Source: Actinomycetes bacterium (GTDB taxonomy: Bacteria; Actinomycetota; Acidimicrobiia; Acidimicrobiales; RAAP-2). From it: a DNA stretch of 64,000 nucleotides. This document shows, piece after piece, positions 42,258-45,268 of this stretch. The position numbers and the translations under genes are program-made. Where the stretch lies: the NCBI GenBank assembly GCA_021793515.1, contig JAJYSP010000003.1, positions 1-64,000 on the forward strand, given 5' to 3'. The notes under the pieces were generated by a model. That model was given only the letters and a program-made list of their open reading frames with translations, was not told the origin of the DNA and searched no databases. Numbering within the stretch: the first letter of the stretch is position 1; every line of letters begins with the position of its first letter.

Positions 42258-42289
42258 TTGCGTAATACCTGACTAAGTTAATAAGATTT
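42258..42289 (+). promoter_or_regulatory. Sulfite reductase promoter with Rrf2/IscR-like operator
   Basis: TTGCGT (42258-42263) and TAAGAT (42282-42287) form a promoter with an 18-base spacer, in an AT-rich island. The segment 42265-42289, which begins ATACCTGACTAAGTTA, fits the remembered E. coli IscR type-1 consensus at 20 of 25 positions, with a strong left half and a weak right half. It fills the spacer and the -10, so binding of an Rrf2-type regulator would block transcription. Confidence 0.5.
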
Positions 42290-42321
42290 CTAGTAATTAA
42301 CCGGACGACCCGAAGGACGAC

Positions 42322-43980
42322 ATGACCGTCACCCAGCCCACCAGTTCGCCCGTCGAAACGATCAAGGCGGCGAGCGACCTGCTGCGCGGCGCCCTCGCGA
42401 CCGAGCTCGCCGCCCCCGAGGCGAACGTCTCGGCGGACTCCGAACAGTTGCTCAAGTTCCACGGCGTCTACGCCCAGGACGACCGCGACCAGCGCCGGGC
42501 CCGCTCGCTCGCCGGCGAGTCCCTCGCCTACAGCTTCATGATCCGCGTCGCGATCCCCGGTGGCCGCCTGACGACGGCCCAGTGGCTGGCGCTCGACGCC
42601 GTCGCCGACGACGTCGCCGACGGCTCGATCCGACTCACCACTCGCCAGGCGGTCCAGTTCCACGGCGTCGCGAAGTTCGACCTGCGCACGGTGGCGACGA
42701 CGCTGCACGGGCACCTGCTCACGTCCTTCGCCGCCTGCGGCGACGTGGTTCGCAACACCGTCACCTGCCCCGAACTCGCTCTCGACGGGGCGAGTGACAC
42801 GCGCTGCGACGTGGCCACGCGCATCGCGCGGGCCTTCAAGCCCGCGACGCGCGCCCACTTCGAGATCTTCGTCGACGGCACGCTCGCCGTCTCGGGCGGC
42901 GACGTCGAGCACGACTTCTACGGTGAGACCTATCTGCCGCGCAAGTTCAAGATCGCGATCGCGAACCCGGGCGAGAACTGCGTGGACGTCTACGCCCAGG
43001 ACCTCGGACTCGTCCCGGCCACCCACCCCGAGGTCGGCGACGGGTTCGTCGTGCTGGTGGGCGGCGGGCTCGGCCGCTCCTACGCCCAAGAGGACACCTT
43101 CGCCCGGCTCGCCGAGCCGCTCACCTTCGTCACCCACGACGAGGTCATCGAGCTCATCGGTGCGGTCGTTGACACCTACCGCGATCTTGGGGACCGCAGC
43201 AACCGGCGCCGGGCGCGGCTGAAGTACGTCGTCGCCGACGGCGGGATTGCGAGTTTCGCGAAAGAGGTGTCGCGTCGCTACGGACCACTGCGGGCGCCGA
43301 TCGCCATCGACCTCGCCGCGGCCGACGACCACCTGGGCTGGCGCGAGCAGCAGGACGGGCGCTGGCGCCTCGGGATCCGCGTCGGCGCGGGACGCGTGCG
43401 CGACGTCGCCGAGGGACGCGGACTGCGTAGCGCGCTTCGTGAGGTACTCGACGGACGTGACCTCACCCTCGTTGTTACGGCCCAGCAAGACCTCATCGTC
43501 GCGGGCGTCGCCCCCGACGACCGGGCCGCCATCGACCAGGTGCTGAAGCGACACGGCGTGCGCAGCCTCACTGAGCTCGGTGCGGTCGAGCGCACGGCGC
43601 TTGCCTGCCCGGCGCTTCCCACCTGCGGCCAGGCGCTCGCCGAGGCCGAGCGGGTGCTGCCCAACGTCGTCGACGCCGTCCAGGGTGAGGTCGACCGGCT
43701 CGGTGGCACGCGGCGCATCCAACTGCGCATGACGGGCTGTCCGAACGGGTGCGCTCGCCCCGCGGTCGCCGAGGTCGGCGTCGTCGGGCGCACCAAGAGC
43801 ACCTATGACGTCTACCTCGGGGGCGGACCGCGCGGCGATCGGCTCGCGCGCGTCGTGCGCGAGAAGGTGAAGCTCGACGACCTCCCCGAGGTGCTGCGCC
43901 CTCACCTCGAGCGCTGGCGCGACGAGGGTCGCGAGGGCGAGTCCTTCGGTGACTTCTTCGATCGGGTCACGCCGTCGTGA
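42322..43980 (+). CDS. Assimilatory sulfite (or nitrite) reductase, siroheme/[4Fe-4S]
   Basis: A 552-residue ferredoxin-type sulfite/nitrite reductase. The siroheme/substrate basic residues lie in IRLTTRQAVQFHGV (about 92-105) and in the NVTC-like RNTVTCPELA region. The four cluster ligands are in ACPALPTCG (Cys about 429 and 435) and GCPNGCARP (Cys about 472 and 476); the last bridges siroheme. Sulfite rather than nitrite is favoured by the siroheme genes that follow and by the Rrf2-like promoter site, but nitrite cannot be excluded. The start is ATG 42322 after GAAGGACG. The end overlaps cobA by 4 bases. It supplies sulfide for cysteine synthesis. Confidence 0.88.
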   Translation: MTVTQPTSSPVETIKAASDLLRGALATELAAPEANVSADSEQLLKFHGVYAQDDRDQRRARSLAGESLAYSFMIRVAIPGGRLTTAQWLALDAVADDVADGSIRLTTRQAVQFHGVAKFDLRTVATTLHGHLLTSFAACGDVVRNTVTCPELALDGASDTRCDVATRIARAFKPATRAHFEIFVDGTLAVSGGDVEHDFYGETYLPRKFKIAIANPGENCVDVYAQDLGLVPATHPEVGDGFVVLVGGGLGRSYAQEDTFARLAEPLTFVTHDEVIELIGAVVDTYRDLGDRSNRRRARLKYVVADGGIASFAKEVSRRYGPLRAPIAIDLAAADDHLGWREQQDGRWRLGIRVGAGRVRDVAEGRGLRSALREVLDGRDLTLVVTAQQDLIVAGVAPDDRAAIDQVLKRHGVRSLTELGAVERTALACPALPTCGQALAEAERVLPNVVDAVQGEVDRLGGTRRIQLRMTGCPNGCARPAVAEVGVVGRTKSTYDVYLGGGPRGDRLARVVREKVKLDDLPEVLRPHLERWRDEGREGESFGDFFDRVTPS

Positions 43981-44690
43981 CGGTCTTCCTCGTGGGGGCG
44001 GGACCTGGTAGCGCCGACCTCTTGACGCTGCGCGCGCTGCGCACCCTCGAGCGCGCCGAGGTCGTCGTGCACGACCGGCTCATCGGCGCCGAGATCCTCG
44101 CGCTCGTCCCGTCCTCGGCCGAGGTCTACGACGTCGGTAAGACGCCCGGCGGCCCCGACAACCAGGACGCGATCAACGAGTTGCTCGTGCGCTACGGGCG
44201 CACCGGGCGCACCGTCGTGCGCCTGAAGGGCGGCGATCCCTTCGTCTTCGGGCGCGGCGGCGAGGAGCTCGCGGTGCTCGCGGGTGCCGGGATCGACTGG
44301 GCGGTCGTGCCCGGGATCACCTCGGCCTTCGCCGCGCCGCTCGCCGCGGGGATCCCCGTCACGCATCGGGGCTCGTCCTGTGGGGTCGTGGTGGTGAGTG
44401 CTCGGGGCTGTGAGCGCGACCCCGAACTCGCACGTCTCGCCGCGGCCGGGCTGACGATCGTGATCCTCATGGGGGTCGCGCGACGCGGCGCGATCGCGGC
44501 CGAGCTGATCGAGGGCGGGCTCGATCCCGCGACGCCGGTCGCGGTGGTGGAGAGCGCCTCTACGCCCGAGGAACGCGTCCAACGCGCCACGGTGGGCGAG
44601 CTTCCCGCGATGACGGTGACGTCCCCGGCGGTCATCGTCATTGGTGCGGTGGCGGCCCTCGACCTCGTCGGTGGGACGGCGTCGCGATGA
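43977..44690 (+). CDS. cobA: Uroporphyrinogen-III C-methyltransferase
   Basis: A 237-residue SAM-dependent methylase making precorrin-2 from uroporphyrinogen III. Seen: VFLVGAGPGSADLLTLRALR (the N-terminal GAGPGDPxLLT motif), VVVHDRLI, VVRLKGGDPFVFGRGGEE (substrate/SAM loop), VVPGITSAFAAPLAAGIPVTHRG and ILMGV. Length is that of stand-alone CobA/SUMT rather than CysG. GTG 43977 overlaps the sulfite reductase stop, and its end overlaps the next gene, so siroheme is made in step with the apoenzyme. Confidence 0.94.
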   Translation: MTVFLVGAGPGSADLLTLRALRTLERAEVVVHDRLIGAEILALVPSSAEVYDVGKTPGGPDNQDAINELLVRYGRTGRTVVRLKGGDPFVFGRGGEELAVLAGAGIDWAVVPGITSAFAAPLAAGIPVTHRGSSCGVVVVSARGCERDPELARLAAAGLTIVILMGVARRGAIAAELIEGGLDPATPVAVVESASTPEERVQRATVGELPAMTVTSPAVIVIGAVAALDLVGGTASR

Positions 44691-45268
44691 TGCTCCCGGT
44701 GGCCCTGGACCTCGCGGGCCGTCCGGTCACGGTGATCGGGGCTGGCGCGGTCGGCGCGCGAAAGGTCGCCCAGCTGATCGAGGTCGGCGCGGTCGTCACG
44801 GTCATCGCCGAGGCGGTGCGCGCACCGCTGCCGAGTGGGGTCGCCACGGTGCGGGTCCGCCGCTACCAACCCGGCGACCTCGCCGGGGCAGTGCTCGTCG
44901 TCGCCGCGACCGGCGACCCCGCGGTTGACGACGAGATCGTCGTCGAGGCGACCTCGCGTGGCCAACTGCTCAACGTCGTTGACGACCCGTCGCGCTGCTC
45001 GTTCTATTTCACCGCGCTGCACCGCGACGGCGACGTCGTGGTCTCGGTGTCGACCTCGGGGTCGTCACCGGCCCTCGCGAGCTGGCTGCGCGACCGCATC
45101 GCGGCGAACCTGCCCCGTGGTCTTGGTGCGCTCGCGAGCCAGCTCGCGGCACTTCGCGAGGCGCGTCACCGCGACGGGGCGAGCACCGAAGGTCTCGCGT
45201 GGCGCAACTGGATCGACGCGTGGAGCCGCGGGGACGTGTTAACGGGACCGGACGATCTAGAGACCTGA
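44687..45268 (+). CDS. Precorrin-2 dehydrogenase / sirohydrochlorin ferrochelatase (Met8-like)
   Basis: A 193-residue protein equal to the N-terminal part of CysG or to Met8/SirC: ALDLAGRPVTVIGAGAVGARKVAQLIEVGAVVTVIA (Rossmann NAD site, 6-41), LVVAATGDPAVDD, NVVDDPSRCSFYFTALHRDGDVVVSVSTSGSSPALASWLRDRI. The Asp in the 'NVVDDP' stretch corresponds to the catalytic Asp of Met8. It oxidises precorrin-2 to sirohydrochlorin and probably inserts iron to give siroheme. The ATG overlaps the cobA stop by 4 bases. Its 3' end overlaps the convergent reductase gene by 12 bases. Confidence 0.9.
   Translation: MMLPVALDLAGRPVTVIGAGAVGARKVAQLIEVGAVVTVIAEAVRAPLPSGVATVRVRRYQPGDLAGAVLVVAATGDPAVDDEIVVEATSRGQLLNVVDDPSRCSFYFTALHRDGDVVVSVSTSGSSPALASWLRDRIAANLPRGLGALASQLAALREARHRDGASTEGLAWRNWIDAWSRGDVLTGPDDLET

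Follow-up and report, generated by a model that had tools for sequence, protein, structure and literature searches.

A predicted Rrf2-type operator upstream of sulfite reductase and a probable sulfur regulon in the Acidimicrobiales

The Sulfite Reductase Operon and Its Upstream Region

The stretch of DNA analyzed here (the window) spans 64 kb and belongs to a 2.38-Mb draft genome from the order Acidimicrobiales. Its forward strand carries a sulfite reductase gene (nirA) followed by a uroporphyrinogen-III methyltransferase-like (SUMT-like) gene and then a met8-like gene, with overlaps between consecutive open reading frames (ORFs). The first ORF, 42322-43980, scored 608 bits against the PRK13504 equivalog model (cut-off 457), and an operator-like palindrome lies 33 bases upstream of it. 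The features of the locus are as follows:

42258..42263, + strand: putative −35 element TTGCGT, weak; read from the sequence, with TTGCTA or TTGCGA similarly spaced in some relatives
42265..42289, + strand: predicted Rrf2/IscR-type-1-like operator, imperfect palindrome ATACCTGACTAAGTTAATAAGATTT, center 42277; from consensus match, same-genus conservation, symmetry and a profile match (E 2.3e-6 in its own genome)
42282..42287, + strand: putative −10 element TAAGAT, within the right half of the operator; TA(A/G)G(A/G)T is kept in relatives
42312..42316, + strand: putative ribosome-binding site GAAGG, read from the sequence
42322..43980, + strand: assimilatory sulfite reductase hemoprotein, nirA/sir type, 552 aa; Pfam NIR_SIR 7e-49, NCBIfam PRK13504
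43977..44690, + strand: uroporphyrinogen-III methyltransferase-like (siroheme) gene, overlapping nirA; TP_methylase 2e-49
44687..45268, + strand: siroheme synthase N-domain-like gene, Met8/CysG type; NAD_binding_7 and Sirohm_synth_M

An earlier note on this DNA had described a 20-of-25 fit to the IscR type-1 consensus, located between the −35 and −10 elements of the promoter. The fit was borne out: positions 42265-42289 are identical to the consensus ATASYYGACTRWWWYAGTCRRSTAT, which we verified in its published form (PMC3899308), at 20 of 25 positions (80%), as compared with 68 and 76% for Pseudomonas IscR sites (PMC3899308). The location stood in part, in that the site covers the spacer and the placement is plausible, although its right half overlaps the −10 element and a sigma-70 scan reported no promoter 5′ of sulfite reductase. 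The −35 and −10 boxes, drawn by eye with an 18-base spacer between them, are thus a plausible assignment for which conservation is the support.

No other place in the 64-kb window reached 19 or more matches to the IscR consensus, and a first-order Markov simulation gave 0.05 expected places per 64 kb with at least 20 of 25. For the left half, ATACCTGACTAAGTTA, shuffles predicted 0.01 matches at three or fewer mismatches; one was observed, with 0 mismatches. The window site is symmetric at 8 of 12 pairs, and over 79 sites the mean was 5.7 of 12 pairs vs. 3.6 ± 0.17 in within-site shuffles. In both site sets, symmetry was highest at the IscR type-1 center among all centers tried, and the site of one relative (G016, ATACCTGACTAAATCAGTAAGGTAT) matches the IscR consensus at 24 of 25 positions. 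From the consensus match and the fixed-center palindrome, we predict that 42265-42289 is an operator of the Rrf2 type (IscR type-1 class).

Sulfite reductase orthologs were detected in 29 of the 61 genomes of the order. Every same-genus gene with an upstream region available carries the block AATNCNTGACTAAN4-5TAAGATTTA, with variable flanks; nothing else argues as strongly for a functional block as this conservation, which extends over 24 same-genus sulfite reductase promoters. Four same-genus genomes (G001, G004, G032, and G033) lack both nirA and an operator detectable in our profile scans (R1 and R2, below), despite having both of the Rrf2 types described below. In the nirA promoters of G030, G021, and G027 (L015, L016, and L018, respectively), the first half-site is followed ~31 bases downstream by another, inverted one (TAGTCAGGTA or TAGTCATTTA), which suggests two dimers or an extended operator.

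Distribution of Sites Across the Acidimicrobiales

A profile trained on the 24 nirA sites (R1, sequence-only) returned exactly two matches in the window's own genome, one at nirA (E 2e-6) and one at G000:C43:7309 (E 0.002); the suf genes of this genome (G000:C31:40979-44196) were not among them. The second match is:

G000:C43:7309-7339: second predicted operator of the genome, 31 bases 5′ of the start of a DUF4395 gene that adjoins a TauE/SafE gene

At this second site only 3 of 12 pairs are symmetric, a point against the preferred reading given below. Because its −10-like TAGGAT is so near the ATG, the DUF4395 transcript is probably leaderless.

Over the 61 genomes, R1 gave 52 matches outside known nirA loci, three of which were nirA promoters at contig ends, leaving 49. 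Directly adjoining sulfur-related genes were 44 of these 49, a tally in which DUF4395, nitroreductase, and carbonic anhydrase are counted as sulfur-related through association, without proven function. DUF4395 accounted for 15 of the 44 and was the commonest regulon member besides nirA, followed by rhodanese with a divergent nitroreductase (8), sulfite reductase or siroheme genes (5), MetY (4), CysH/CysD (3), carbonic anhydrase (3), sulfate-type substrate-binding proteins (SBPs; 2), SQR-like proteins (2), a ThiS-like protein (1), and a CitMHS-type permease (1). One of the remaining five matches adjoins a YceI-like gene and four adjoin nothing recognized. The rhodanese-domain and nitroreductase-like genes are arranged divergently around one common operator in eight genomes (L134, L137, L138, L140, L149, L156, L160, and L164).

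A broader profile (R2) was applied to 20 of the 61 genomes, picked for their scarcity of R1 matches, and yielded 26 weak matches, two of which (L303 and L305) also belong to the R2 training set. Sulfur genes adjoined 23 of the 26, namely Sir, CysH, ATP-sulfurylase, CysK-like, TauE, rhodanese, MetY, and DUF4395. Two weak operator-like R2 sites precede peroxiredoxin (AhpC/TSA) genes in two families (L316 in G055 and L326 in G039). When R2 was run on 119 genomes of the phylum, matches outside the order were weak only (E 0.03 or worse) and were taken as background. None of the annotated matches in any genome searched (61 with R1, 20 with R2) lay at suf genes. Because matches occur at sulfur genes and none at suf, the controlled process would be sulfur assimilation rather than Fe-S assembly, and we conclude from the sequence evidence that the order-wide Acidimicrobiales regulon is real and probably undescribed.

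The conserved block might instead be the promoter of an alternative sigma factor, given the conserved TAAGAT-like hexamer in its right half and the fixed distance of ~31 bases that separates it from the start codon of DUF4395 genes in the genus. A promoter of this kind is hard to reconcile, however, with a block that is palindromic about one fixed center, that occurs in either orientation with ~20 to 150 bases between it and the start codon, and that in one relative approaches the IscR consensus to within a single position; we regard this explanation as highly improbable. An operator read by an Rrf2 protein remains our preferred reading of the block.

Candidate Regulators

Three proteins of the window's own genome scored above the Rrf2 cut-off. 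The first, type A (G000:C30:85453-85899), scored 129.8 bits against PF02082 (cut-off 30) and 113.8 bits against TIGR00738 (cut-off 73.3), and its best-scoring models are IscR-like. Its scores against the curated IscR (94.6 bits, cut-off 207.6) and CymR (75.3 bits, cut-off 195) equivalogs fell below both cut-offs, so it was filed as neither. Almost every one of the 61 genomes of the order encodes type A, at 68 to 99% identity; G022 and G024, both incomplete, have weaker matches only. By this protein, the nearest named relatives are Acidimicrobiaceae and Acidimicrobiales metagenome assemblies, many of them named for bog or palsa, and the named isolate Ferrithrix thermotolerans.

The recognition helix of type A, RTGLPQPYLEQILL, is invariant in 80 relatives (L223-L302) and is IscR/CymR-like (PYLEQIL). 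It keeps the Glu corresponding to IscR E43, the recognition-helix residue that guards type-1 binding (PMC3899308). Also invariant over the 80 relatives are D8, H97, C102, H104, E105, and C108. The cluster ligands of IscR are C92, C98, C104, and H107 (PMC3899308), a set that type A does not reproduce, having H97, C102, and C108 instead. In Streptomyces coelicolor NsrR, the partner subunit contributes Asp8 as a cluster ligand (PMC5411485). Type A may thus possess something resembling an Rrf2 cofactor site, with the unusual replacement of the first Cys by His.

These residues bear on the idea that the regulator is an IscR-like protein of Fe-S homeostasis, which would control nirA as a consumer of [4Fe-4S] and siroheme. 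The IscR type-1 half sites agree with it, as does the resemblance of the invariant D8, H97, C102, and C108 to Rrf2 cluster ligands. Type A is nonetheless without the Cys-Cys-Cys-His set of IscR, most regulon members are not Fe-S proteins, and suf genes are missing from the annotated matches of every genome searched; we consider Fe-S homeostasis an improbable function.

The assignment of type A to the sites draws on co-occurrence. Type A was the sole Rrf2 protein detected in six genomes (G047, G048, G049, G050, G052, and G057), as judged by protein searches at E 1e-6 in a collection made up largely of incomplete drafts. Sites occur in each of the six, adjoining sulfur genes in five and the CitMHS-type permease gene in G047. 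Any Rrf2 protein that reads the site in these genomes would be type A. Counting against type A, its gene does not lie within any sulfur gene neighborhood in the window's genome, and G001, G004, G032, and G033 have the protein but no detectable site. There is also no sign of autoregulation, since no operator site precedes the start of the type A gene.

The second protein, type B (G000:C31:32219-32674), contains no cysteines and scored 106.1 bits against PF02082 (cut-off 30), 102.3 bits against TIGR00738 (cut-off 73.3), and 76.3 bits against the curated CymR equivalog (below its cut-off of 195). We take it to be Rv1287/CymR-like. Most of the genus has it, as do roughly half of the remaining families and other members of the phylum. 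Type B could bind the operator in place of type A or along with it, and its surroundings speak for this: in other families it adjoins genes for sulfate/sulfonate SBPs, Sir, CysH, CysD, or DUF4395, and the motif separates type B from a sulfonate-type SBP gene in G043, lies 5′ of a DUF4395-type B gene pair in G045, and is found a short way upstream of type B and CysD in G076. Furthermore, a role in sulfur regulation is proposed for a Rhodococcus Rrf2 protein whose annotation names it a regulator of sulfate adenylyltransferase (PMC8557817). Against these points, at least six site-carrying genomes lack type B, its recognition helix in the window's genus is FLGAIL, whereas most other families have FLENIL and IscR has YLEQ, and the upstream regions read at 18 type B loci outside the class held no comparable site next to the gene. 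Type B as the sole regulator was at first favored by its neighborhood and was dropped since genomes without it carry sites; a role in place of or alongside type A seems to us unlikely, and both proteins may bind related sites.

The third protein (L003 1489-2409, G000:C27 near 162250) has three cysteines, is fused to a Polyketide_cyc2 (SRPBCC-like) domain, and adjoins a flavodoxin/FAD oxidoreductase-like gene. This Rrf2-SRPBCC fusion (G000:C27:162250) was rejected as the regulator; its relatives occur in only some site-carrying genomes.

The earlier note had proposed that an Fe-S- or cysteine-sensing Rrf2 regulator controls sulfite reduction in this lineage, and had called for an Rrf2 gene in the genome and for similar motifs before suf, cys, or other sulfur genes. 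With three clear Rrf2 proteins, a second site in the same genome (at DUF4395), and many sites at sulfur genes of relatives, control of sulfite reduction by an Rrf2 protein gains support at the level of sequence. The motif does precede cys-type genes (CysH/CysD) in relatives but no suf genes. Regulon content thus favors control of sulfur assimilation, and the Fe-S side of the sensing proposal found no counterpart at suf.

We consider it fairly probable that the site is the operator of a dimeric Rrf2 protein, most likely type A, within an order-wide regulon of sulfur acquisition and reduction. A type A dimer would sit on the palindrome, spanning the promoter spacer and the −10 element, and under sulfur sufficiency the bound regulator would bar RNA polymerase from the nirA-SUMT-met8 operon. 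When the supply of sulfur, cysteine, or cofactor falls short, type A would lose its ligand or cofactor and leave, freeing the promoter. The regulon would encompass sulfite reductase, CysH/CysD, ATP-sulfurylase, siroheme genes, and sulfate/sulfonate transport, and further TauE/SafE, rhodanese, MetY, and DUF4395. More tentatively, and at less than even odds, type A might be an order-specific Rrf2 protein whose new ligand set (D8, H97, C102, and C108) carries a metal or Fe-S cofactor, which has kept type-1 recognition while being wired to sulfur assimilation and not to Fe-S assembly, and in which cofactor occupancy reports sulfur supply.

Relation to Known Rrf2 Systems and Significance

The proposed system shares with IscR of Escherichia coli and Pseudomonas a 25-bp palindrome that has the same center and half-site (ATACCTGACTAA) and overlaps promoter elements, and type A has the Rrf2 fold and retains the conserved Glu in a YLEQ recognition helix. 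It differs from IscR in that sites occur at sulfur-assimilation genes rather than isc/suf, in the lack of visible autoregulation, and in a possible H-C-C ligand set instead of C-C-C-H. CymR, the Rrf2 repressor of cysteine metabolism in Bacillus and Staphylococcus, works with CysK. The likeness to CymR is one of regulon content (sulfur genes at 44 of 49 and 23 of 26 matches) and of the YLEQ helix, whereas types A and B both score below the curated CymR cut-off and belong to another phylum.

In family and neighborhood, type B, though probably not type A, resembles the Rhodococcus/Rv1287-like sulfur regulator proposed for Actinomycetota; outside the class, no similar motif was seen beside type B in Actinomycetota. 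The Rhodococcus study proposes the role and, in its available text, gives no binding site (PMC8557817). NsrR and RsrR of Streptomyces are likewise Rrf2 proteins, and D8 is common to NsrR and type A, but they answer NO or redox signals and have other regulons. RsrR class 1 sites are 11-3-11 repeats, and its class 2 targets are half-site-like (PMC5015018).

Literature searches on Rv1287, or on Rrf2 together with Acidimicrobiales, turned up no article linking such a protein to sulfur regulation, nor did the literature searched describe any sulfur regulator for the Acidimicrobiales, a large order, for the most part uncultured, that is common in peat, in permafrost, and at acid mine sites. For this order the site yields an operator, a list of regulon members, and a candidate protein, and it ties poorly known genes, such as DUF4395 and the rhodanese/nitroreductase pair, to sulfur metabolism. 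On our preferred reading, it would also be a case of IscR-like DNA recognition uncoupled from Fe-S assembly.
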